Shown: positions 5,647-45,684, counted from the first letter of the stretch. The stretch: 64,000 bases of DNA from Tubulanus polymorphus (GCF_964204645.1 NC_134032.1:8302275-8366274), one strand, 5' to 3'. Made by a program: numbers and translations. Notes: generated from the sequence alone by a model not told the origin.

Positions 5647-7750
5647 ATGGTAGTATTTGAAGGCGTCGGCGTGCAGGTGCATTTACAAGAAAACCTGATC
5701 AGACGCTACATAGAGGAACATCTTGAGTGGTTGGACGAGTTCATCGCTGGAGCCGATGACCAAACGTGGAGCAGATGGATTTCGATACGAAATCAAACCG
5801 GTTAGTTAAATGCTTTAAAATCGAAACCCGCTCGCCGATTTTAACGCGAATTTGCATCATTTTCGAAAGATGAAATCTGCTAGTTTGTAGAAGGAATCTC
5901 GACTACTGCCGAAATAGATGATTCAATCAGGTGTCCTGGGCATGCAGGGTACTATTTATTTTGGCAATAGAGGATTCCACTCGCGACAAGTGAAGATCCA
6001 CCCGTCACTTATGCAAAAGGACACCATTTCATATGGTATTGATAGAGGATCCTCACGTGCTGCGATTGAAGCGGTGTGGCCACTGCCCAGAAAAATCAGG
6101 GAATTTTACCAAAAACCTTGAAAACCCTTGAAAGTCTGGGAATTTGGAAAATTCTATTGACCATGTGTTTCTTTAGCATGCGATGCATTGAAAAATGGAT
6201 GATTTATTATTATCATTATACAAAATTTGTATAGCGCCTTATTCCAAAGAGGCTCTAGAGCGCTTTACACAAAATAACAAAGACGCGGTAATACATCCTA
6301 CAAAACATATAAAACATCTACATGGAAAATTCAGTCGAAATGTCTGGTGAAAAGTTAAGTTTTAAGAAGAGTTTTAAAACGATGTAGTGATTCAACAGAT
6401 CTGATGGCACTGGGTAGAGCATTCCATGAATTGTAACATTTTAAACCTACTGTCTGTCACACCTGCTCTCCGTGCGACGTTTTGGTCCGTAATTTCGTTA
6501 ATAATCCGTTTATCTACCTTTATTACGCATCAATTTGTTCAGTGAGGACTTTGCATTCAGAAATAAACAACAATTTTTACTAATTGTTTTTGTTTTCATT
6601 TATGAGCGATAGTTTACTCAGCATACGCTCGCGTAATGCTGAAAATTCAGCTCCGCGGGCGCTCGCAAATGTTACAGTGACGTAATCACCTGCTCATTAG
6701 CATATCAAAATACAGTAGGTGGCGCCACGTGATGGGTCATAAAAGCCATTTTTCGGCATTACGCGAGTGTATGGTAGGTAAAACTATCGCTGATTTATGA
6801 AAACACAAACAAATCTATGCCAGTTCATCATTTATTTCTGAATGCAAATTCCTTACTGAACTTATTGATGCATAATATTTGGAGATAAACCGATTATTAA
6901 CGAAATTACGGACCGAAATGTCGCACAGAGAGCAGGTGACAGACAATAGAAGTCTCTCTGAATCGACTCAGGGAATTTCTATAGGCCCAATCACAAAAAA
7001 AATCGGGAAAAACTAAGGGAATTTATAAAATGGATGTAAAAAGGCCACCCTGTAAGGGCCCACCAGGTGTCAGCGCGCTAATATGATAGGACGCAATAGA
7101 TGTGAGGTTGTTAAAATGAGGTTTCACTGCACCGAGTTTTATTCGTTTGTTTATATTTATTTCAGTTAATCTGACGGCTCAATGGCAGACGGGTAACCGT
7201 GACGACGATCCGCAGACGGCGACCACGCGGCAAATTCCCTGTTCTTCGAATCCCGCGCGAAAGCGCCGCCTCGAACTTTTGAGTCGTCGTTGTCAAGCGG
7301 CCGCGCGCAACTGGAAACGCCGTCGGGCTCTCACCGCGCCCGCCGTGCACCAACAAGCGCCGACAGACTACGACGTCGATTGCTCGGGCGACCTACCGGG
7401 GGCGTCGGACAATTCGAGTCATTGGAAATTAAAGCGTTCCCCGTCGGACGCCGAAGATTGCGACGACGAAAACGTCGATTCCGGTTCATTGACCTTGACC
7501 CCGGCTACTACGTCGGTGGGCGGAAATTTACCGACGACGGCGGTCGTAATCAAAACGGAGCCCCCCGGCGGCGAGGGGGAGGATCACGCTGGCGATTTTA
7601 TCGACGAAATGTTTTATTCGGATAACGCTAATTTGCGGATCGCCGATCCAAGCGATTCGGATTTCACCACGGCAGAGCAGAATTCATTCCCTAGTACGAG
7701 TACAGGTGGCGCCACTGTCTCATTGAATTACAGTCAAAACACATCACCGG
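5647..7750 (+). CDS. Shared 5' exons of a nuclear-type cassette gene
   Basis: Two exons, 5647-5800 and 7166-7750, join in phase 1 (acc g / tt aat) and give 246 codons plus one base. The ATG at 5647 follows an acceptor ending at 5636, so a non-coding first exon is likely. The N-terminus (MVVFEGVGVQVHLQENLIRR...) matches no family I know. Exon 2 has a basic, bipartite NLS-like stretch (ARKRRLELLSRR then NWKRRR), acidic patches and an IKTE sumoylation-type site (VIKTEPPG). These suggest a nuclear regulator, which is inference. The exon ends at a GTAAGA donor after the first base of a codon (ccg g|gtaaga). That phase fits the acceptors at 10009, 13881 and 16928, each opening a different 3' cassette with its own stop. 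Confidence 0.75.
6200..6330. repeat. Dispersed GCGCTTTACA-type repeat
   Basis: The words tatagcgccttattcc and ctctagagcgctttacac form a short imperfect inverted pair, of a kind I recall as scattered through many marine invertebrate genomes. It is intronic and I see no coding content. Confidence 0.4.
6445..6950. mobile_element. MITE with long terminal inverted repeats
   Basis: The left arm starts with tctgtcacacctgctctc and continues past ggtccgtaatttcgtt. It is mirrored at about 6780-6950, which ends ...gagagcaggtgacaga. Arms are roughly 170 bp, with a unique centre around 6640-6770. There is no transposase, so it is non-autonomous. A solo right arm recurs at 9497-9676. Confidence 0.7.
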
Positions 7751-9205
7751 GTAAGAACAAAACATTTTATACATCTATCGCTATTTCACAAATTCATCTT
7801 AAAAACTGGTATTGAATGTTACCTCAAGTGCAGTAGATCGATTAAGATACCGAACTCCAGTTCTAGATCGACCCCTAAATTCGGGCGCGGATCCCCAGGG
7901 GATCTTTTGGGGCCTTATAGAAGACCTTCAAATGTTTTGATTTTTTTGTTGCGGTCAATGGCCTGGTTTTATAGACTGGAATCAACTTTAACCCACGGGT
8001 TAAATCTATTGAAAATGAATTAAGTTAGCCCCCGGGTTAAAGGTAATACCAGTCTATAAAACCAGCCCCGTAGCTCTTATAGACTGGTATTAACATTTAG
8101 CCAGGGGTTAGGCCTAACTCAATTGAAAATGAATTGAGTAAGCCCCCGGGTAAAAGTTGATACCGGTACCAGTCTATACTGGTAACCTTGAATTTAAATT
8201 AATTAATGTTTGGTTGATTTAGGAAGAGAATTCTACAGTAATTGGGATATGAAAGAAATGCGGGCCCCTATTTTGAAATTTTAAATTTTCTCCTTTGAAA
8301 CTCCTTAGGCTTATATGCAGGGAACTTCATATCCAGGGGTGACTGATCTGTAGGGACCTAGGATTATAAGATCCTATACGGTTCAAATGTGCTCCTCTAC
8401 CTAGCAATGTTCCTGCAATCCCTGACCCCTATTGTTTAACAATCTTTATGTGTATGCATTTTCATTATAGATTTGTATTAGCCTAATTTAATTGTTTTCT
8501 AGCCTTCTACTTGGGTATGTTGCTTAAAATTGGGGAAAATTATCGTGAAGGATGAACGTTTCGGAGTTCGCTCATCTGACCCCTTAACGTTATTGGTTTC
8601 AGCTGAAATAGAAGAAAGTGTTTTTTTTTCAATCATTCAATGTGCCCTTTATTTCAACGCAGCACAAAACCTTTCTAAAGTTGGCCCTGGCCTGGAACAG
8701 CTCCTGAAATCCAAAATAGTTCATTTTTAATAACTTAAAAAAATTATGTCTTCACGTATGCTGTTTGCTGTTCAGTGAAGTTCTGAACACATATTCACTC
8801 TGGACAATCACTTATGGAGTGCGCCTTGATGAAAGCTTGGTGTTCGTAGTTCATTTCTGATGTCTTGGGACTGTCTTGGGGTGAAGTCTATACCTGTGAA
8901 GAGTGGACAATTACTTTTTGAAAGTGTCCTGATAGAATGCCTGTCTGGCGTTTGTAGTCCATTGTTCATCGAAAGGGCCTTAGATGAAGTTGTGAACACC
9001 TTTTGAAGTCTGGATGATCAGTTTTCGTAGCAATAGTAGTCAATACGTCCAATTAGAACGTCGCGCGCATAGTTGTGAAGATTGATACCTAAAATTTCTG
9101 AAATGGTGACCATACCAATACCATATTTGGAAATTTCTAGTTACCAGATTATGATATTTTTTATTGATTTTATGCGCTAAAAAAATGAATTCAGTATTCT
9201 CCTAG
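7751..9205. other. Intron sequence with a foldback pair
   Basis: At 7961-8185 two related palindromic elements occur (ctggttttatagactgg / ccagtctataaaaccag, then a second copy ending ggtaccagtctatactgg). A related element is at 22161-22320. The rest (8190-9205) is AT-rich with no exon I can support. Confidence 0.55.
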
Positions 9206-9342
9206 GCGAGTCGCGCTTGTCGAGAATTCGGTGAAACAATTTTGTTTTCGAATTCGAGTTTTTTCATTCCGCGAGTAATTTGCGACGACTGTGACGAAGA
9301 AACCGCTTTCATCTCGTGGAAACGAACAGTTCCTGACACGCG
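9206..9342 (+). other. Candidate exon, not placed in a transcript
   Basis: An acceptor-like tattctcctag is followed by 137 bp open in one frame (...FFIPRVICDDCDEETAFISW...) and a strong donor (cg|gtaagtgc). It enters in phase 0 and leaves in phase 2. The exit phase fits the acceptor at 11212, but the entry phase does not fit the donor at 7750. It may be an alternative first exon of cassette A or a decayed duplicate. Confidence 0.3.
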
Positions 9343-9440
9343 GTAAGTGCGCGCTCTAATTTGACTTCTGATCTTTCGAGAAAGAAACTTATCAAAAAGA
9401 AATTATATCGATATATCGTTTAAGAATTTTGAACCTACGA

Positions 9441-9493
9441 TGGCTTGAGATTTTGAACCCGGAGAAGAATTTGGAAACGATTCTGAAAGTGGT
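9441..9493 (+). pseudogene. Duplicated fragment of the 11212-11491 exon
   Basis: The words gagattttgaacccggag and cgattctgaaagtggt match the exon starting at 11212 almost base for base over about 50 bp. The copy lacks the rest of the exon and runs into a transposon arm at 9497, so it is a truncated exon duplicate. Confidence 0.7.
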
Positions 9494-9496
9494 ATA

Positions 9497-9676
9497 TGCT
9501 AGGTTAACTATCGCTGATAGATGAAAACACAAACAAATCTATGCCAGTTCATGATTTATTTCTGAATGCAAATTCCTTACTGAACAAATTGATGCATGAT
9601 ATTTGCAGATAAACCGATTATAAACGAAATTACGGACCAAAACGTCGCACGGAGAGCAACTGTGACAGACAGTAAT
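9497..9676 (+). mobile_element. Solo arm of the 6445-6950 MITE
   Basis: The sequence from aactatcgctgatagatg to gtgacagacag matches the right arm of the element at 6445-6950 with few changes. No matching left arm is present, so this is a truncated copy or single arm. Confidence 0.7.
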
Positions 9677-10008
9677 TTCTATCAGGCGTACTGATGATGG
9701 CTGATAGTATTTAGCCGAAGCGTTGCTCGAAATACATATATTTTTACTAGAACTTCTCTCTCGTTATTCATCTCACACGCATATCGCGTATCGTCTCGAC
9801 TCTTCGATAAATTGGAACGTTTAAAGCTAGAAATTTCTCGGGGAATCTCACTCGGGGAATCTTTTGTGGTCACGTGGAAAAATCAGGGAAATCTCAGGGA
9901 ATTTTAAAGGGCGTTAAGTGGCCACTATGGGTTGATAAGTTAATCGATTATTGAATTTTCGCGTAAATTTCGCCGCATTAATCGTCCGTGATTTCGATGA
10001 AATTTCAG

Positions 10009-11491
10009 GTTCGACGACGGCTGTGCTTCGAAAACGACCGAAAAACCGAGACAAAATCAAAAGAACGTTGACGCGAGCCGTCGTCTGCCTGGCCGAGACG
10101 GACGCGCTGTTGATACCGGATCGAGATGAACTAGCGCGGCTACTCGCGTCCGGGCTCGGCTTGCGAAAAATTACGTTCAACGCAAACGGATCGAAGCAGG
10201 ATCTATCGGATAAACTCTACGAGTAAGTTAGCGATTTATGGTCCCGTTCCATAAACTCCCCCTACGGTTGCCTTCGTAAAGACCCCTACGAAATCAAGTT
10301 CCATAAACGCTTACGGTGAAGATGACGGCTTCCATACATTTCCCCTGTGACATCGTCAAATTCCAGAAAAGATGGCTACCTTCATACCCCTACGATCCTT
10401 TTTTTCGAAAAAAGTTTCGACAAACATCATCTTTGTCCTTCTTTTTAACCCAAATCCATCCTTTTGATAAAAAAGTCCTTCCAAATTTGATTTTTTATGT
10501 ATTTTCGCATGCAATTTTGTCGCGAATTGTACTGTTGAAGTATTCTATTACTCGGGCCTGGTAATTCAATTAAATCATTAAGATTGAATAATTACCCTGA
10601 AATGTATGACCGGTCTACACGACTAGTATTCCAGCAAAGTCATTGCGAAAATGCTCCCTTATGGACCCTTTTACTGGAAAGAACTTCTTTCTGAGTCAAA
10701 AAGTCCCTCCTTTTGGGTCTAGAATTGTGGAAAAAGTCCTTCTTAGTACTTCTTTTTTCCCTGGCCTTACCACTGGAAACCCTGCCTAGATAGTTCCTGA
10801 AAGCATGGATCCATATATCCCCCTACGATAGGCCTATGATTGAATTACCGATGAGAGAGCCTTCCAGTATAGATGGCTCCTTCTATAAACCCCCCATGAT
10901 CACCCAGAGCTGCCAAATGTTCCTGATTTTCAGTGTTTATTACAATTTTATAACAAGAAATACCAATTTGATTTGTTCGATACTACAGAAATATGAAAGA
11001 TGTTACTGATGGTCTTATTGTTGAATGATGGAACATTTTCTTTCATATTCCAATGAAATGTTACTCAAAGAAATTAAACTTGTTACTAATAGCGCTTTTT
11101 AGAGGTTGGCAGCCCCGATATCCGTAGCGGAAACGATAGCTGCCTCCGTAAATTCTCCCCCTATGTCTATTATTGAAGAAATACTTTGCAAATGCGGATT
11201 GAATTTTTCAGGGAATACCCAAAGTTAAAACGTGGCGGTGGTTTTGAGATTTTGAACCCGGAGAAGAATTCGCGAACGATTCTGAAAGTGGTCCACGTCG
11301 GCGCCATCGAGTGTAGCCGACTTGGCGAGGTATCGGCGTCGAAATTCTACGTCCGTCCGCTGCAGGTCGACCTGTCTCGCGTCGTCGACGTGCAGACTCC
11401 GCACTCAGGTGGCACGATCGCGTGCGTTCGCTGCCGGCGCCGATTCAAAATCAACGACATCAGAAGTCATCGCGAGAAGTGCTTCGTTTGA
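10009..11491 (+). CDS. Cassette A: G2E3-like C-terminal module
   Basis: Exons 10009-10222 and 11212-11491 join in phase 2 (ctc tac ga / g gaa tac) and end at TGA 11489-11491. Spliced to the shared exons they give a 410-aa protein. The module contains LLASGLGLRKITF, YPKLKRGGGFEIL and KFYVRPLQVDL, a run I associate with invertebrate proteins labelled G2/M-specific E3 ligase-like (G2E3-like); this is recall, not a search. It ends in a probable zinc knuckle, CVRCRRRFKINDIRSHREKC (Cys-x2-Cys...His-x4-Cys). There is no HECT or RING domain, so ligase activity should not be assumed. Exon 1 of the cassette leaves in phase 2, so it cannot splice into cassettes B or C. No AATAAA lies close downstream; one is at 12876-12881. 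Confidence 0.7.
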
Positions 11492-13880
11492 AAAACGTAC
11501 GACGCGCCGACAGCTACGTGTTCCTTCGAAGAAGCGGTGCAAATGTTAGTATTTTTTCGATTTTGTCGTTATTTCGTAGTCGCTGTGTTCTCCGTATGCC
11601 GTCAGTTCAACGGTACAACTCCTTGATTCCTTGAAAACTCCTTCTAAACCAAAAATATTTTTCTAGGTACTTGTCGAGAACATAAGTGAGAATAATTGAG
11701 AATTGAGTTCTAACGAACAACGTAATTACATTTACTTACACTACACTTTACGGATTGACATAGGCTCTGCTCGCGAGAGCTGTAAAACGACCACTGCCGT
11801 ACCCATACCATACAGTCGATCATGCGCACTAATCGTGGTGCGAAAACCTTGGCGGGAAAATATTCCTGACAGTACTTGAATATCCTTGAATTTAAGCAAA
11901 ATGCCCAAAAGTCCTTAAAAACGCCTTGAATTTTGAGAAATTGGCAATTTTTTGGCTCTAGGCCTAGTTATTATATACACAGATTCCATCGATTGAATGG
12001 TTTACTGATAAAAACAGTACCACTGTGGCTGCTGAAATAGCAAGGCTTTCAATGCTCCACAAAATTCAGCTCGATTTCGGTGTAATCTTCTATTTTTCAC
12101 ATTACCTCAATATATTTCAAAGCGATTATCAACATTGATAGAATATTGACATCCGCTCTTGTGGGGGCAGCTGTTAATTTTTTAAGGGATAACTGATTTT
12201 CAGAGGGGTGGATGTAAAAATGTTGCGGAGAACACTGCGTGAAAATTATGGTTCTCTCTGAGGAAGAATTTTCAGCATAGCTAAGCAAAATTATGTTAAG
12301 TTACTAATGACGATCTTACTCTAATGATTCATTAAAGTAACTGATGACAGCCTTTCATTAACCCTTTCAGCGCTGACTAATTTATACCCGAAAGTGCTGA
12401 AGATGATACATTGTATGAGAAAAATCTTCCAAATGCCACTCCAGTGTGTTGAATAATGGGCATGTCGCTACAGTGCGTCTACACCATCCTGCGGTGTATC
12501 ATTAGTTACTAATATTTTACAATGTTTGACAGGTTATAGTCATTCAATAGGGATAGAAACTAATAACTAATAGGCCTATATGAATACACTACGATGCAGT
12601 GTACTAGCTAAGTCCATCACCAATTTATACATCGTACTGCGGTGTAGATGCACTGGAAGGGTAATGTTATGATTTATGATGACCTTCTCACGCTTGATGA
12701 CTTCAATGATATGATTTGATTGTAGTTACATTTGTGAAACAGGGCCGTATTGTTTGAAATGTTATTTATCACTTACCCGATCACTTACTTTACTTTGTCT
12801 ACACGAACTGTTGCCTATTTGGATGTCTGGCGAAAACTCAAAATGTACATTCGATTAATTTCAAAATAATTGTTAAATAAATGCGTTATCATTAAAAATT
12901 GTTGTTACGTTTAATTCATTCGCCAGGAGCCACAGTGAATAACCAGTGCTTGTTGCTCCTGACAGTCTTTTGGGCAGTTTATCAAGACAATCAGGACAAA
13001 TATCAGTCTTAAGTAGAGGGGAACTTACAGGCGTAACATGACTGAAATATGGATCTGCTTGAAAATTGTGAAAATAATATGAAAAGGTTAAAGAAGCATG
13101 TGAAAAATGCGAAGAAAAATATCCATCCCATCTACCGTGAGCTGTATGCAGCAAAAGCTGTGTAAAAGTTAACGAAATTTCACTTTTTTCCGTCCAAGTC
13201 GCGATCAGTAAATTCTTGTTATTGTACCCTGACGTGTAAAAAACGTGAAAAATCTGGAGCGAGGAAATTCATGTGAAAGATCCGGTGGTAGTTTGTTGTT
13301 AAAAAAGCAATATTGAGGATATGAAAAGGTGAAAATTTCAGAGTTCATCAGTCTCCCTTGACTGTCTTCATCAGTCTTGGAAAATGTTTCTTTAGGTGCT
13401 TGAAGCTCCCTTAATTTGAGCAAAATGTCAGGAACCCCTTCAATTTTTTTGAAAAAAGCAAAATAGAAATTTTCGTCTAGTTTATAGTTGTACAGTAGAC
13501 TATGCCTAAATCGATTAAGTTGGGATTCGTTTTTACCCAATTAGGCAGTGACCAAATTAGAAAACGAGTTAAGGTAGTGTAAAGGATGAACATTTGCTCA
13601 CAGAACTACAGAAAATGGTTTATACATGTACATATGAAAGTCATACAGACACTCCTTATATCCAGGAATGACTGTTCTGTAGGGACCCTGTCCTACCTTT
13701 GACGTCGGTTCGTATGTATGTGTAATTCTATAGTAGGATGATGAAATAATTGGATGGAAACGACTCAAAATTGAATGAATATTCAAGTATTCATTACGAG
13801 GAACAGCCCCGTTTGTTGCGCGCGTGCACGCCTGTCGGTGTAACTATGGTAACCTTCGGTGTTTGTTTGCCTATTTTCAG
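11492..13880. other. Sequence between cassettes A and B
   Basis: Contains a piggyBac-type MITE (12358-12663) and an AATAAA at 12876-12881. Otherwise it is AT-rich and I see no exon. Open frames at 12873-13154 and 13205-13540 on the minus strand have no coding character. Confidence 0.5.
12358..12663. mobile_element. piggyBac-like MITE
   Basis: It begins TTAA-ccctttcagcgctgac and ends gcactggaaggg; the right-hand TTAA has become gtaa. It is closely related to the intact TTAA-flanked copy at 19482-19772, with the same internal words such as ctgcggtgtaga. Confidence 0.65.
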
Positions 13881-14296
13881 ACGGCGGTCGACGAATCGCA
13901 GCGGACGACGACAACGACGAGGTTACCGTGGTTACCGAGCATCGGCAGCACGCGACGCGTCGAGAAACGACGTATGACGACCCCCGTATATACGGTCTAC
14001 CGGCGCGACATTTCCAGCAGAGACAAGTCGCGCTCGATCGGATGATGAATTCGACGGTTCGAACCGCAGCGGTCGCTTCTCCCGGTACCGCGGCGTCAAT
14101 GCAGCACGTCTGCCATATTTGCGATAAGCATTTCAGTTACAAGTCGAATTTGTGGCGGCACATGAGTTTACACCCGGGAGTGTCGCCGTTCTCGTGTCGA
14201 ATTTGTCAGAAGAGCTATCGCAACGCGAACAACCTGAGAACTCACATGTTGAAAACGCACAGCGACCAGATGGATAGACTCGTGAGTTTATTCTGA
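13881..14296 (+). CDS. Cassette B: two C2H2 zinc fingers
   Basis: A strong acceptor (tgcctattttcag) opens this exon in phase 1, matching the shared donor at 7750, and the frame ends at TGA 14294-14296, giving a 384-aa isoform. After an acidic then basic linker come two classical fingers: CHICDKHFSYKSNLWRHMSLH and CRICQKSYRNANNLRTHMLKTH (positions roughly 318-370). The Y/F-K-S-N-L pattern is like BTB-zinc-finger variable exons of insects. A GTGAGT at 14282 could act as a donor (phase 0), but the next known acceptor (16928) is phase 1, so use of the in-frame stop is the simpler reading. The exon end seeds a 70-bp tandem array directly downstream. DNA binding is the expected role. Confidence 0.75.
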
Positions 14297-15125
14297 GAAC
14301 CCGCGTGAAACTCACATGTTGAAAACTCACAGCGACCAGACGGATAGACTCGTGAGTTTATTCTGAGACCCCGCGTGAAACCCACATGTTGAAAACTCAC
14401 AGCGACCAGACGGATAGACTCGTGAGTTTATTCTGAGACCCCGCGTGAAACCCACATGTTGAAAACTCACAGCGACCAGACGGATAGACTCGTGAGTTTA
14501 TTCTGAGACCCCGCGTGAAACCCACATGTTGAAAACTCACAGCGACCAGAAGGATAGACTCGTGAGTTTATTCTGAGACCCCGCGTGAAACCCACATGTT
14601 GAAAACTCACAGCGACCAGAAGGATAGACTCGTGAGTTTATTCTGAGACCCCGCGTGAAACCCACATGTTGAAAACTCACAGCGACCAGACGGATAGACT
14701 CGTGAGTTTATTCTGAGAACCCGCGTGAAACTCACATGTTGAAAACGCACAGCGACCAGATGGATAGACTCGTGAGTTTATTCTGAGAACCCGCGTGAAA
14801 CTCACATGTTGAAAACTCACAGCGACCAGACGGATAGACTCGTGAGTTTATTCTGAGACCCCGCGTGAAACTCACATGTTGAAAACTCACAGCGACCAGA
14901 TGGATAGACTCGTGAGTTCATTCTGAGAACCCGCATGAAACTCACATGTTGAAAACGCACAGCGACCAGATGGATAGACTCGTGAGTTTATTCTGAGAAC
15001 CCGCGTGAAACTCACATGTTGAAAACTCACAGCGACCAGATGGATAGACTCGTGAGTTTATTCTGAGAACACACGTGAAACTCACATGTTGAAAACGCAC
15101 AGCGAATTGATGGATAAACTCATGA
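14241..15125 (+). repeat. 70-bp minisatellite containing an exon end and donor
   Basis: GTGAGT donors recur exactly 70 bp apart at 14282, 14352, 14422 and so on to 15052 (12 copies), with a decayed ATGAGT at 15122. Each unit carries the last roughly 45 bp of the zinc-finger exon (cacatgttgaaaac, agcgaccaga, ggatagactc), the donor and about 25 bp of what follows. Copies are over 90 percent alike and differ at a few shared sites (tggatag/cggatag, gaaaacgcac/gaaaactcac), so array turnover is recent. Since 70 is not a multiple of three and each unit has an in-frame TGA, this is not a protein repeat. Confidence 0.95.
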
Positions 15126-15167
15126 GTTTATTCTCACAAGTTGAAATAACTCGCATGTTATAACTCA

Positions 15168-15277
15168 GGACCCAGTTCCACAGTTGTGAATTAGAGTTAA
15201 CTCTGAGTTGAAATTAGTTCATTTTCAATGTTTTAACTCAGAGTAAAATTTTAACTCACGACTGTGGAACTGGGTCC
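15168..15277. repeat. Palindromic GGACCCAGTTCCACAG element
   Basis: The two ends are perfect reverse complements over about 16 bp and the interior is rich in gttaactc/gagttaac. Fragments with ccagttccac or gtggaactgg also occur near 30,690, 32,573, 36,107 and 46,916, which suggests a dispersed foldback family. Confidence 0.65.
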
Positions 15278-16239
15278 GGATGTTTATAACTCACATGTTG
15301 AAAGCTCGCAGTGACCAGATGGATAAAACTCTTGAGTTCATTCCGAGAATTCGCGTGTTGAAAACTCACACTGACCCGATGGATAAACTCGCAATTTAAT
15401 TCTGAGAACTCACATGTTGAAAGCTTGCAGTGAGTTTAAACTCGAGACTCTTATTATGTCAAAAGCTCACATTCACAATTGCTGATCAACTCATGCTGAG
15501 CGGTCACTACTCTCAATGGGACTGCCTACCATACTTCAAGGCCTCAGAATTTCTGGTTAAAAAAATCCATAGATAACTGAATGAATTTCAGACTGCACGA
15601 TTAGTCAAGATATGCACTAATAATCTTTACAATTTAATATGTCAATAACTTTAATGGTCATATTTTTTATTGATTTAGAATTTGATTTCTCATCATTATA
15701 CATTGTACATTATTTTTGATTACGACAATTGAGATTTGTGTAAGATTAAACATTGATTTCAATGCTAACTAAAAATAAACTATAAAGGCTGAAGATCATC
15801 AGTTTAAATTCTGATTATTTTAACCTTGAATCTTATGATTTCAATAGAATGTTTATGTTTGAAATATGTTCATGCTTGTTCTTGGTGAACCAAACCTTGA
15901 AGTAACAGGGTACCCCACAGCGCTACTGTCAGGGGTGGATTCAGGGGCATGTTGTGACCATGTCGACCAATAAAAAGGGCATATATTCTTAATCTAGGGC
16001 GGAAAGGCATATCAGCAAAATTTTTGAAATTTTCTATCATTTTAGAGCTTTCTGAGCATCTCTGAGAGGCATTTAGTCAAGAAACATTATATATTTAGGG
16101 AAAATATCTATTGTGTATCTCAGGTGGGCACTTAAAAATTCTGACTGTGTCGGGCGATACGGTCGACACGGCCTAAATCTGCCCCTGACTGTGGCAATTG
16201 AGGATTCCACGTATGGCAGGCGAAGATCCGCAAGGTTCA

Positions 16240-16408
16240 CTAGGGGATCATTCATTTATTACGTACGCCCAAAATTTGAATTTTTCAACCCCCCTCCCCT
16301 CTACTCAAAATCGACCATTTTTTCATATACATTAAGCATTACAGTACGCAATTGCACTGACCCCTCCCTCCTCTCCTAATGCGTACGTAATAAATGAATG
16401 ACCCCTAG
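16240..16408. mobile_element. Short MITE with 27-bp terminal inverted repeats
   Basis: The left end ctaggggatcattcattt, continuing through tattacgtacgc, is mirrored at the right end (gcgtacgtaataaatgaatg then acccctag). The interior of about 115 bp has no coding content. Confidence 0.7.
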
Positions 16409-16927
16409 TACATGTAGATAGTTGGTCTTCCACCAATTTCTTCTACAAATCTAAATGAACTTTTCTCTTAAATGAATCAATTTAATTTATGAAAACTATA
16501 CCGAGTAGAAGACCACACTTCACTGTATATCGCACCCCAAGAGCGGCTTCGACTACAGACATCAAATTGACAGCTGCTTTTACAGGGTCCCTACGACCCC
16601 TCGATTCTTTATCAAAAACTTCATAGAGGAAATGCTTTTAAATGGTGCTTGAAACTCCTTTAATTCAAACAAAATGCTCGAAACTCCTTCATTTTTGAGA
16701 AATAGGCAAGTGGAAATTTCATTTATTTTGCTTACAAAGCCACCCAGATAATACTAGCTAGATAAACAGTACCGGTTTAGGTGGAGTCTAAAGTAATTGG
16801 GACTAGTAATGTCGAAATTTGAAATTATTCCCTTATATCCAGGAATGACTGACCTATTTTAATAATAATGTTACCGTGCGTTGAATAGATGAATGTAAAA
16901 CTTTGTTTTTCGTTTTATTTTTTGCAG

Positions 16928-17849
16928 CGTACACGACGACATGGAATATGAATCGAAGGCTCGTACGAGGGTCGAGTTTATACGATAAAGTCATCAAAGC
17001 GGTGTGCGGTATACCGGGTCCGGCCGCGTTACCCAGGACCATACAACGTCGCATCAAGGGCTCTAAAATTCAGGAAATTCGAGGTAAATTGAAACTGTTT
17101 TTGTTTTAGGGTTTCGTTCGCCAAAGTAAGTCAAATAAAAGTAGCCACCATGTTCTGCTATTGTTATTCCAAATCAGGGAGGGATTTAGGGGAGGTTGCC
17201 CTTTTTGTGAAATCAAAGATCATTAAAACCTGTTTAAATTTGTTACTTATCCTTTCAAAAATTGCATTTTTCAAACATATTTCTAAGAATATCTAATAGC
17301 ATTGGTGGGACTCCTCTAGTAGCCTATGAAATGGCTGCTTTATCTGAAAAATGCCTTTTTCTTCTGGACCCCAGTCTTCCAAATTCACTTTGTCTATGGT
17401 CAGCCCTAGTCAGTAGGCCTAACCTGTCTGGTTGGATAATTTCACAAACCACAGTACATTGGTTTAAGCCCATCCGATTATTAAGCTTACCACCAACGAT
17501 GCCTGCAAATTCATTACCACCAATGATAGGTAGGCCTACTAACTATGGGGTCCGCCGCTGCAAATATGATATTGTCTATTTTACAGACGAACTTTGTCGT
17601 TTGGGTCGGCACGGTTTCGGCAAATTGAGCACGGTCGAAATCGGCGGGTCGCTGCGATCGTTATTCTTCAAAACTCCGCCCACCGCTGTGAATCCTGCCG
17701 CATTGAATACGTATTTGGTGAAGGCGCGGATGTCGCTTTTCGAGTACGAACTGTGTTTCAACGACGCCAATCAGACGGAACGATCCATCAAAGAAGCGTG
17801 TTTACTTCATCACCCGCAGAAACAATTTCTCGCTAAATTTTGGCGGTGA
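16928..17849 (+). CDS. Cassette C: unrecognised C-terminal module
   Basis: Exons 16928-17083 and 17587-17849 have excellent acceptors (cgttttattttttgcag and attgtctattttacag), join in phase 1 (cga g / ac gaa) and end at TGA 17847-17849. The first exon enters in phase 1, so it fits the shared donor at 7750 and yields a 385-aa isoform. The module starts YTTTWNMNRRLVRG, has helical-looking stretches (SLYDKVIKAVCG, KIQEIRDELCRLGRHGFG) and a SLRSLFFKTPP motif, and ends FLAKFWR. I recognise no domain; BEN and DUF4806 were considered and do not fit. An AATAAA at 18027-18032, about 180 bp past the stop, suits the 3' end of the whole locus. Confidence 0.65.
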
Positions 17850-40700: not shown

Positions 40701-43700
40701 ATGCGCAAGAACATTGTGGCGATATGATTTTTTTTTCTAATTCGAAAATTTCGAGTTAATAAGTAAAAAGAAAATTATATGGCTACAATGCTCTTCCGTA
40801 CTAACTAACAGGTTACTTAAAATATCCCCTCAACATCCCTCACAGCATAACCATACGGGTAAATAATATAACCCTTTCCTCTCTCAGTCACTAACAGGTA
40901 GGCCTAACTGAATATCCCCTCATCACCCCTCAGAGCAACAGCATGCAGATAAATGATATCACCCTCCCCTCTCTCGATCACAAACAGGAAACTAAAAAAT
41001 ATCCCCTCAATTCGCCTCACAGCGACAACATACACGTAAATAATGTCATCCTCTCCTACCTCACAAACAGTAACTAAGTAACCCTTCAACTCCCCTTACA
41101 GAGACCCGATAGGGACCCTGTTATCCTGTTATATAAGAAATTGTCACACGCAAATTTTCTAAAATCTTGAAAATTCTACAATATCATTCTCATCGATGTT
41201 TTTGATTCTCGTCCGCAACAGTTGAAGTTGCTGAGGAGAGGGATTTTATCGACGACAACGACGTAGATTTCGAGCCAGAGGATGAACGACGTCCGTCGAA
41301 GGCATCCGTGTTGAAGTTGAAAAAAGAGCCATTCTTCGGGCCACCGCCGAACCGGCCGCTACAGGCGCTTTCGTGCAGGCGTTGTAGTAAAGAGTTCTAC
41401 GATAAAGCGGAATTAGCCCTGCACATACAGGAACATTTGAAGGTTCGTTATAGAATTTCTTTTATGAAAAGTAGAATCAGAATTTGAACAATTGATCTTC
41501 GATATTAAATTCATTCATCAATTAAATTCTTTTTATGGCTAAAAAGATCATCACAAAAGTTGATTGTAATCGGAAGTTTCAGTCAAGAATAATTTATCTG
41601 AATTATTTCAGGTAATTAAATTACATGTAAATCTGTAGCAGTTTTCACGAAACTTGATCAACTTTCATGACGATTAAAAACCTACATCATTGTCCATCCT
41701 CACTTAAAACAAATTTTATCGTAATCATCTAGTGTCATGATTAGTGACTAATCATGACACTAGATGATTATGATAAAATTTGGTTTCACCAAAGGGTTTT
41801 ATACGAAGGGGTTGACAAAATCTTTTTAGAAATTCTAATTCAGATGTTAAAGAAATTACTTGGTTGTACATGTAATATATTTGATATCAGCAGTCTCACA
41901 CCAATACACCATTTAAACAAATTAGCTGTTAAATCATCGTTATAGCTGATTTGCTGCGTTACTAGACATTCTAGGGTTAATAACTTTTTAGAAATTTTAG
42001 AAGTCAGGTATGAAAAAAAAACATTCTTTTTTCTCCACACAGGTGAACTCTTGCGAAATTTGCGAAATGTCGTTCTTCCAATTGGACGCCTTGAAACGAC
42101 ACATGGCGATGTTCCACCGTAACCCGATGACCGGCGATTCGTCGACGTCGAAAATCAAAAAAGAGAAAGCCTCCGACTACGGCGACGAGCACGAGACGGC
42201 GGGCGGTCGCGCCAGTAAGAAGCGTCGCGTAAGCCCTCCGCCGCGCAACCACCGCTACTCGACGCGCGGCATCCGTTTAGACATGGCCAAATTGACAGGA
42301 ATCAAACGCGAACCGCAAAGCAGCGACGAGGAGTATGTGCCAGAGAAACGCGAGCCGAAAAAATCGCCCACCGTAAAACGTGGCAGAGGCCGGCCGCGTA
42401 AAGTGGTGACACCCGCGGCCGAGGTAAAAATACGCAAACCGCGAGCGTTCGAAGAGACAAACGTCGATGCCGACGTATTAACGTCGATCGCGGGAGCCAA
42501 CGTCGAAGAATGTCAGGAATCGGTCAAACGAGTAGTCGACGCGGTTGTCAACGCCGTCGAGTTGTCGACGAACGTCGCCGGGGAGGCCGACGGGCTGAGA
42601 GACGAGAATATCAACGACGATGATTTCGACGATCGTGCTGAACGCGTGGACGACGAGGCAAGACCGGACGACGTCGACGTCGAGGGGGATGAGGACGATG
42701 AGGCAGAAGAGGGAGAAGATGAAAGCGGGATCGCGGTGCCGGAGATGAACGATGAGGAACTAGCGAGCTACGAACGCGAGGAAGACGGGTTGGTGTTGGA
42801 TCGCGAGCAGTTGAAAATCGAATCGAACGACCGCGAAAAATGTTACATCGTGTACACGTTCATGGCTCGAGTGGACGACCTAGAGCAGCAGCCAACGCAA
42901 TCCGGTATCGAGCAAACACAATCATCAACTTTGGGTCAGACTGATGAGTCCGGTATAGGGCAGATGGAATCTGGTCTCGAGCAGATGGAATGCAGTTTAG
43001 AGCAGACACAAACTGATATCGGGCAAACAGAGTCTAATTTAGAGCAAATGGAAACCAATATAGGGCAGACTGAGTCCAGTTTGGAGCAGATTGAATCCGG
43101 TCTAGAGCAGATCGAATCCGTTTTGCAGCCAACGGCATCGAGCGTCGTCGAACGAATCGAACCTGGTGCGCAAATCTACGAGTGCCGGGCATGCGGGCGT
43201 CTCTTCAGCCGCGATGTGTTTGCTGAGAAGCACGTCAGCGTCACGCACGGCTTCGTCTGTTCGTACTGCACGAAGTCGTTTCGCAAAGACACCACGTACC
43301 AGGTGCACCGCTGCAAACAAATGGTCGAAGGCGTCAAACCAGATGCCGATGGTGTCTACCACTGTCCGGAATGCGATAAGAAATTTGCAACCGTCGACAC
43401 GCTGCACCCGCATTTGTTCGGGCACCGGCGCAAGCTGCAGTGCCGCCTGTGCAAGCGGTCGTTCATGCGTAAGGAAACGTACCGGAAGCACGCGTGTCCG
43501 GCGAAACGGCCGGCGGCGAAAACGTACCGCTGCGACATCTGCAACATGACGTTCGCGACGGCGAAATATCTGTTCCGGCACCTGGCTGCGCACACGGAAC
43601 GTTTCAAGTGTATCAAGTGCAGCCATTCGTTTTCGCGCAAGCAGAGTTTGCTGTCGCACATCAATAAATGCAATCCGGCTCAGTTCCGCGCAATGGGCAT

Positions 43701-45684
43701 CTCGGCGTTTCCGTGCCGCATTTGTAACCGCGTGTTCAGCGAGGCGGTCAAACTCGACAACCACATGGTCATGCACGAAGGCAAGTACAAGTGCGACGTT
43801 TGCTTCAAGAGCTTCACGAACATGAATACGCTGAAGCTGCACATTTGCTCGTCGTCGAAAACCGAGGACAAGTCGCTGGTGATCGACGCGGTCGTGACGC
43901 CGACGGCCGAGTTGCCGATCGTCAAATGCGACGGCGGTTACGCGTGCCGCCTGTGCGACAAACACTTCGCCACCGAGAGACTGCACGAGAAACACATGAC
44001 GGCGCACACTGAGAAACTGGTCTGTGACTTCTGCGACACGGCGTTCCAGCGAAGACTCGAGTTGAACTCGCACGTGGTCGTGTGTCGCGCGACCGGCGCA
44101 CTGAAGGAGACCGGACGCGTCAGCTGCGAAGTCTGCCCGCTCGTGTTCATCGACTTGGCCGAGTACAAACGCCATGTCGACGTGGCGCACACGCAGCCGT
44201 TCCGCTGCGACACGTGCGAACGCCACTTCCGCAGTTTGCTGCGCAAAATCGAGCATGAGCGCGTCTGCTTGAAAATGACGAACGACCAACTGGAGAACTT
44301 AGTCTGCCAGTCGTGCGGCAAAATATTCAAAGACGCGCAGAGCCTTGCGCGGCACATGATCGTGCATCAACGGCCGCAGCACCACTGCGATGACTGCGGC
44401 AAGGACTTCTACCGACGCGACTACTTCAACCAGCACACGTGTCGGCGCGCGGATGGCACCGTCGTGCAACTGCAGCGCGGCAAGTACGACGGCGCAGAGC
44501 AGAACACGACGCCGCACATTTGCCATTTGTGCGGCAATTCGTACATCAGCTATGGCAACTTGAACAAGCACTTGATACGGCACGGCGAAAAAACGGTCCC
44601 TTGTCCCGTCTGCGAGAAAATGTTCCACCTGGAATCCGCGATGAAGGAGCACCTGAAACACGTGCACTCGAACGACAAGTGCGCGCAGTGCCCGCACTGC
44701 GGCAAGATGATGAAGTCGAAGAACTCGCTCGGCGCGCACATCAAGCAATTCCACCGCGACAACGTCGTGTTGTATCCGTGTCAACACTGCGGCAAGGCGT
44801 TCCGACAGCGCGGCAACATGCTCAAACACATGCTCATGCACTCGTCGCACAAGACGTACGCCTGTCCGTACTGCGATAAATCGTTCAAGTACCCGGAACA
44901 GTTGCACAAGCACAAACTCGAACACGAACAAGGCCGACAGTTCAACTGCGCTGACTGCAATCGCTGGTTCGTCAAAGAGTACGAGTTGCGCAAGCACAAC
45001 GCCGTCTTTCACAGCGGCGTTATGTACACGTGCGAATTCTGCCCGACCGATTGTCGGCACATACACACGCTGAAACGGCACATCCGACGTCGGCATCCCG
45101 ATCGTTTGTACTTGCTGAACGACGCGTCGTACTTACGCAGTTTACAACGAATCGTCTCGGAAGGTGCCGTCGCGGCCGCGGCTGAAGACGATGATAACGA
45201 CGATGTCGAGAACATCGTCGCCAAGCAACCGAAACAGACGATTCAAACGATTCGCATTTTGCAGCCCGGTTCCGGCTCAGACCGCCTGCAAGAGATGGAA
45301 ATCGAGCTGACCGGCATCGACCAGCCGCCGCAGCAGCAGCACGTCGAACCTATGCAGGAGGTGACTATCGAAGAAATCCAAAACGACGCCGACCTTCAGC
45401 AGGTGCAGCGTTTGGTCGGCGAGGCGTCGGTGGCGCGCGAAGGCAACGAGGCGGCGCAGACGGTCAGCATCGAGTTCATGTCGCACGAGGCGGCCGAGGT
45501 TCTTCAGAGTTTGTCGACGACCAGCGGCGACGTGCAGACAGTCACGCTGGCCGATTTGACGCGTTTGACCGCTGGTCAAGAGGGCGCGACGCACATCATA
45601 CACCAGGACGGCGAGTCGCAGGAGTATATACTTGTACCGCTGATAAACGCCACCGATGAACAACACGCTATTACTACTGGTTGA
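34775..45684 (+). CDS. PRDM15: PR/SET-domain zinc-finger protein, PRDM15-like
   Basis: Eight coding exons: 34775-34808, 35495-35576, 36455-36617, 37321-37460, 39692-39795, 40549-40662, 41222-41442, 42043-45684. Phases agree, giving 1,499 aa. PRDM15 is a nuclear chromatin-linked transcription regulator. Residues 12-28 form the knuckle CDICGGDHYTEQCPEL that precedes the PR domain in PRDM10/15. The PR/SET domain spans about 39-172 with FGPLDAQ, DSSNEDQCNWMVLVR, GHDIYF and GEELRVWYAPHYAKKL; the RAR-S-LP-NLE start and YAKKL-KP end favour PRDM15 over PRDM10. One finger lies at about 263-285 and 22 more in the 3.6-kb last exon, 23 in all. Ahead of the main array are acidic stretches and a Q/E-rich heptad repeat (42883-43130). 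The tail is Q-rich and ends LVPLINATDEQH. KKEP and IKREP are sumoylation-type sites. AATAAA lies at 46352-46357. Confidence 0.93.
35580..36450. other. PRDM15 intron, C-rich tract
   Basis: A C/T-rich strand with ccccccccccc near 35798 and many cccc runs (35590-35950) lies in the intron between exons 2 and 3. I see no exon in it; open frames here are compositional. Confidence 0.4.
36720..36985. repeat. Degenerate AGTTAACTGACTCAAG tandem repeat
   Basis: Words such as agttaactgactcaag, ttgactgactcaagag and agttaaatgactcaaa recur irregularly every 40-60 bp in the intron after the exon ending at 36617. It is a simple decayed tandem repeat. Confidence 0.6.
37823..38256 (+). mobile_element. Non-autonomous hAT-like element with a BED-like finger ORF
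   Basis: The element starts CAGAGATGCTAG and ends CTAGCATCTCTG, a perfect 12-bp inverted end that fits the hAT CAGNGNTG rule. Inside, 37893-38123 reads an ORF with KFNWHWLECKDSNGDYLSNY, then CVVCKDQVKYGSGGKKDILRH and SARHKQ, a Cys2-His2 BED/TTF-like finger as found at the start of hAT transposases and their host relatives. The ORF stops at 38121-38123 and no catalytic domain follows. The 8-bp flanks (gtgacaag, gacaacac) are not a clean target duplication. It sits in a PRDM15 intron. Confidence 0.7.
38257..39691. other. PRDM15 intron, nothing clear
   Basis: AT-rich intron with no exon I can support. Open frames at 38858-39079 and 39173-39445 lack family similarity and splice context. Confidence 0.45.
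40640..41110 (+). repeat. Roughly 90-bp tandem repeat containing an exon end and donor
   Basis: The end of the PRDM15 exon (cagcagcagcatacag|gtaaataatatcaccct) is repeated in diverged form: GTAAAT-like words at 40663, 40859, about 40949 and 41036, each preceded by cacagc..ca.catac/gcatgc and followed by atcaccctctcctctc. Intervals are about 196, 90 and 87 bp. The donor is kept in two copies (gg|gtaaat, ac|gtaaat) and lost in one (gataaat). Confidence 0.8.
41711..41781. repeat. Near-perfect palindrome, 34-bp arms
   Basis: aaattttatcgtaatcatct continues through agtgtcatgattag, then a 3-bp loop (tga), then the mirror strand to ataaaattt. A single mismatch exists. It would form a stable hairpin in the intron before the last PRDM15 exon. 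Confidence 0.85.

Follow-up and report, generated by a model that had tools for sequence, protein, structure and literature searches.

A likely lola-like gene of Tubulanus polymorphus: a constant 5′ half, phase-matched alternative ends and two putatively captured cassettes

A stretch of 64,000 nucleotides of the Tubulanus polymorphus genome, analysed here as a whole and referred to as the window, holds two adjacent exons followed on the same strand by three 3′ cassettes (A, B and C) of very different content. Does this arrangement represent one gene with interchangeable ends, and, if so, how did ends with no evident relationship to each other come to share a single beginning? The predicted exons and a repeat that overlaps one of them are listed in Table 1.

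Table 1. Predicted exons and the associated repeat, with positions counted from the first nucleotide of the window
Feature	Position	Strand	Content and phase
Exon 1, shared	5647..5800	+	start codon (ATG at 5647) and N-terminal (Nt) domain of ~50 aa; phase-1 donor (ACCG/GTTAGT at 5800)
Exon 2, shared	7166..7750	+	basic/NLS-like stretch RKRRLELLSRRCQAAARNWKRRR and acidic tail with IKTEP (SUMO-like); phase 1-1; donor CCGG/GTAAGA, phase 1; length 585, divisible by 3
Cassette A, exon 1 (A1)	10009..10222	+	first half of predicted G2E3-like N-terminal domain; phase-1 acceptor, phase-2 donor
Cassette A, terminal exon (A2)	11212..11491	+	C2HC motif and stop; relatives upstream of HECT exons
Cassette B, single terminal exon	13881..14296	+	two C2H2 fingers and stop; Pfam zf-C2H2, E 9.9e-12
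Cassette C, exon 1 (C1)	16928..17083	+	phase-1 acceptor, phase-1 donor
Cassette C, terminal exon (C2)	17587..17849	+	stop; predicted C-terminal domain of DUF3987-type repeated gene family
Minisatellite	14239..15134	+	70-bp unit, 12.8 copies, 96% match

Exons 1 and 2 together encode 246 aa and end in phase 1. A first-pass annotation of the same DNA had placed the end of the shared part in this phase at 7750 and had assigned phase 1 to the acceptors at 10009, 13881 and 16928; the former was borne out base by base, and the coordinates and phases of the latter hold. It had also proposed that each cassette carries its own stop and can be joined to the shared part in frame, which we reproduced, with joined open frames of 410 aa for cassette A, 384 aa for B and 385 aa for C. 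Furthermore, the cassettes cannot be chained to one another in frame because of the phases of the donor at 10222 (phase 2) and of the potential donor at 14281 (phase 0), as the annotation had likewise stated.

The splice sites differ in quality. The first acceptor of cassette C is the best of the 3,323 AGs in the window, those of exon 2 and cassette B lie above the 99th percentile of these AGs, and that of the terminal exon of cassette C lies at percentile 98.9; both acceptors of cassette A are weak (89th percentile each). When the first 18.7 kb were scanned for codon usage, the main plus-strand signals were exon 2, B, A2, A1 and C2, with exon 1 and C1 near zero; the scan is partly GC-driven, so that the reverse strand and some other frames of these GC-rich exons score too, and it discriminates poorly between frames in exon 1 and C1. 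The locus is bounded on the 3′ side because the next gene on the same strand, DRC1 (dynein regulatory complex protein 1; PDB match, E 7e-45), starts at ~18676. The minisatellite arose by expansion of the 3′ end of the cassette B coding sequence, stop included, and its copies bear a GTGAGT donor-like site. Farther downstream, at 42010-45684 (+), an intact open frame of 1224 aa with many C2H2 fingers represents a separate zinc-finger gene, with no Nt exon in frame.

Searching the genome from which the window comes (268 Mb) with the shared module revealed at least 33 copies of the Nt domain at E<0.001, at least 32 of them besides the window's own. A paralogous exon 1 used as the query gave 41 matches at E<1, of which 33 had E<0.001, and the window exon 1 matches its nearest paralogue with E 7e-9, the WLD...TW.RW core being conserved. 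PDB sequence searches with exon 1, both single and profile, yielded no credible match, and neither did Pfam for exons 1 and 2. AlphaFold modelled exon 1 alone as two helices at low confidence (pLDDT 62), and isoform A, predicted without an alignment, had a mean pLDDT of 33. To judge from this weak model of exon 1, the Nt domain probably forms a small helical module for interactions, and it may mediate an interaction shared by the predicted isoforms. Fifteen exon-1 copies, 90-100% identical in protein sequence to the query copy, lie in one 250-kb cluster with two divergent halves (C8:11.41-11.65 Mb). Within this cluster, the constant exons are alike and the finger cassettes are very different. 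In open-licence papers, we found no description of such an Nt family.

Zinc-finger exons follow the Nt copies at many places. Of 30 Nt matches outside the C8 cluster, 15 have a listed same-strand C2H2 match at most 8 kb downstream, against 0.12 expected under random placement; this is an undercount because only the best finger matches are listed. For the same 30, no C2H2 match is listed upstream and none on the opposite strand. Nine loci were opened later, seven of them without a listed match within 8 kb, and all nine hold same-strand C2H2 frames downstream of exon 1. Altogether, the same was found in 13/13 stretches around Nt copies (10 outside the C8 cluster and three inside), nearly all of which contain a recognisable exon 2, least clear at C3:22.48, and at two further loci, C11:2.24 and C1:8.02. 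In the loci opened, exon 1 with the Nt domain comes first, followed by exon 2 and then the terminal exons, with 1 to ~35 C2H2 terminal exons per Nt copy on the same strand. The richest unit (C8:11,496,000-11,546,000) spans 50 kb and comprises a single Nt exon, a single exon 2 and 35 finger-pair frames, all in the same orientation. With cassette B as the query, rows of short two-finger exons were recovered on the same chromosomes.

These units also share a rule of phase. Exon 2 is symmetrical (phase 1-1) and a multiple of three in length in all nine units measured; it carries an AQNVL-AVKRRR motif in several units and a SUMO-like KxE or KxEP near the acidic tail in most. The terminal exons have their own stop and contain two C2H2 fingers in 60 of 80 cases, and up to nine. 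The best-scoring acceptor is in phase 1 in 80/83 zinc-finger cassettes of the window and related loci, 12 further finger frames with no acceptor over the threshold having been left out of the 83. This rule is not a product of the scoring because other open frames of the same stretches, put through the same procedure as a control, gave phases of 26:23:22. Against the rule, no phase-1 acceptor scored above the threshold at some divergent loci, namely, C11:5.69, C7:1.945 and part of C3:22.48. In close pairs, the DNA-contact residues of the fingers are somewhat more variable (0.35 vs 0.24), but the control is too crude for this to speak for selection.

The window gene has the features of this family, namely, an Nt exon 1 with a phase-1 donor, a symmetrical 1-1 exon 2 and a C2H2 cassette (B) with a phase-1 acceptor and a stop. 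The locus thus belongs to a large family, the other inspected members of which carry C2H2 cassettes, a fact that the first-pass annotation overlooked; its comparison of the architecture with lola and mod(mdg4) is supported by the same exon order and the phase-1 terminal exons at many other loci. A mere coincidence of gene prediction, with exons 1 and 2 and the cassettes belonging to unrelated genes in a row, would be very improbable given that the same exon order and phase recur at the other loci opened, and for cassette B it is contradicted by the family. Because the other inspected members carry C2H2 cassettes, cassette B, the standard type of the family, is probably also the ancestral one. 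Cassettes A and C likewise have a phase-1 acceptor and a stop, without C2H2 fingers; among the copies seen, non-finger cassettes occur in the window gene alone, all others having fingers only. The three cassettes had been described as unrelated in content, and we concur: B has the two C2H2 fingers assigned to it, as Pfam confirms, and A and C resemble a HECT-ligase family and a DUF3987-type family, respectively.

The relatives of cassette A (31-41% identity) are followed, at nine loci, by same-strand HECT exons 2-7 kb downstream, which makes the earlier label "G2E3-like" reasonable. The zinc knuckle that had been attributed to it does not stand; the cysteine motif is CX2C-X12-HX4C (C2HC-like) and not of the retroviral type. 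Judging from these homologues, cassette A appears to be the N-terminal part of a G2E3-like HECT ligase, minus the HECT domain. It would be a HECT-less end, since no HECT match was found within the window. The phase-2 intron inside the cassette lies at the same place in the one relative checked, and Pfam and PDB sequence searches with cassette A returned nothing credible. Near-identical G2E3-like frames are dispersed at L006, L007, L008, C5:13131462 and C6:18206531, 4/5 of these loci having a HECT exon within a few kb, which suggests that the G2E3-like HECT family is itself mobile or recently duplicated.

Cassette C had been left as unknown; instead, it matches the C-terminal domain of a repeated DUF3987-type family. 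Its relatives (27-43% identity) are preceded, at six loci, by same-strand DUF3987 exons 1-5 kb upstream, and the three relatives checked keep its phase-1 intron. The match is to the C-terminal domain only, with no DUF3987 domain itself in the window, and nothing credible emerged from Pfam and PDB sequence searches with cassette C. Accordingly labelled by its relatives, the cassette is predicted to be the C-terminal domain of a dispersed, mobile-element-like DUF3987 family. The behaviour of this family is that of a mobile element, since some DUF3987 frames occur as near-identical, dispersed copies. Four DUF3987 open frames, each 467 aa long and with nearly the same score, lie on four chromosomes (C6:23004686, C4:11674287, C9:2124132 and C7:18147617) and represent a recently active element-like family.

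We consider it likely that the window gene combines a constant 5′ half with mutually exclusive, phase-matched terminal exons, of which A and C have been captured. A single pre-mRNA would run through all cassettes, the donor of exon 2 would join one of the phase-1 acceptors, and the mRNA would end behind the stop of the chosen cassette, so that the terminal exons would be mutually exclusive. As in lola, the isoforms would differ in their specificity halves; they would share the Nt domain, the NLS and the SUMO-like motifs. Given that the cassettes all have the same orientation, we infer that splicing in this manner, in cis, would suffice, and trans-splicing of the mod(mdg4) type would be unneeded. 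Trans-splicing of cassette transcripts with promoters of their own, as in Drosophila mod(mdg4), would be permitted by the phase-1 rule, and the biggest unit, with 35 cassettes over ~50 kb, could be taken in its favour. Nevertheless, it seems improbable: there are no opposite-strand cassettes in any unit opened, whereas mod(mdg4) has them on both strands (PMC12692577), and cis splicing accounts for everything.

In the window gene, the C2H2 cassette B would have been joined by the two captured cassettes, A and C, which are inferred to have moved into this gene and not out of it. Real doubt attaches to A, and some to C, because the acceptor of A is weak and non-finger cassettes are absent in the other members. 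Moreover, A and C fit the family rule by phase alone, and two phase-1 acceptors would occur by chance in ~1 of 9 cases; either cassette could have its own 5′ exons. Conceivably, then, only cassette B belongs to the family gene, and A and C are either small genes in their own right or the decayed remains of a G2E3-like gene and a DUF3987-type element; in both cases, they would have landed in its 3′ region and would have their own promoters or none. The relatives of both cassettes are multi-copy and dispersed, some near-identical, as this would predict, and it would accommodate both the weak acceptor of cassette A and the restriction of all other members seen to finger cassettes. We regard it as unlikely, though, given that A and C, at ~25-43% amino acid identity to their nearest relatives, retain intact frames, splice sites and ancestral introns, all of which unconstrained fragments probably would have lost. 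In addition, each opens directly at a phase-1 acceptor, that of cassette C being the strongest in the window. The maintenance of open frames and splice sites in sequences so far diverged from their relatives argues for constraint on A and C.

More tentatively, and with somewhat less than even confidence, we propose that, throughout a genome-wide family of lola-like genes without BTB, the conserved phase-1 constant module could act as a capture platform, where any phase-1 terminal exon landing downstream could yield a new isoform, and that A and C were so acquired alongside the original zinc fingers. If this is true, one promoter would give rise to a regulator that binds DNA, a ligase-like partner lacking HECT and a factor derived from an element, three products sharing one interaction domain. 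The window gene is a testable case of how such loci acquire foreign cassettes and still retain the old one.

More broadly, a small, unrelated N-terminal domain occupies a lola-like role at >30 places in this genome, and one Nt unit, with ~35 cassettes, exceeds lola. Since the domain is unrelated, this suggests that the same way of generating isoforms evolved independently, and it suggests a new class of C2H2 regulators, marked by a domain absent from the catalogues. The design, as in lola and mod(mdg4), is already known; the family is previously unlisted, and its N-terminal domain is different.

At the level of genomic anatomy, several alternative 3′ exons can be joined in frame to one constant part, as in lola and mod(mdg4). 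Drosophila lola (longitudinals lacking) also has constant 5′ exons that encode a shared N-terminal half and many alternative 3′ exons, most of them C2H2, with fingers in 17/20 isoforms (PMC11426971). Unlike in lola, where the constant part contains a BTB domain of the TTK type (PMC11426971), the constant part here carries an uncatalogued domain of ~50 aa, and two cassettes of the window gene are not zinc fingers. The absence of BTB from the constant part had been noted earlier, and we found no Pfam match to BTB in the window or the paralogues, and BTB domains of the TTK type are reported from Arthropoda only (PMC11426971); the window gene would thus work like lola without being a member of the lola family. 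The products of mod(mdg4), which combines constant exons with >30 alternative 3′ exons, carry BTB and mostly FLYWCH cassettes (PMC11426971) and are made entirely by trans-splicing, from alternative exons on both strands with their own promoters (PMC12692577); in contrast, all cassettes seen here are on the same strand. Cassette A resembles G2E3-like HECT E3 ligases in its homology to the part upstream of HECT and in the phase-2 intron shared with the relative checked; it differs in having no HECT in the window and in its predicted attachment to a transcription-factor-like N-terminal half. Similarly, cassette C is homologous to the C-terminal domain of DUF3987-type repeated proteins and shares their phase-1 intron, but the DUF3987 domain is absent from the locus. 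Finally, as in the capture of transposon domains by host transcription factors (for example, PMC10027918), a regulatory gene would have gained a domain from a repeated element; here, by contrast, the captured domain would be one alternative end, and the original end would be kept.
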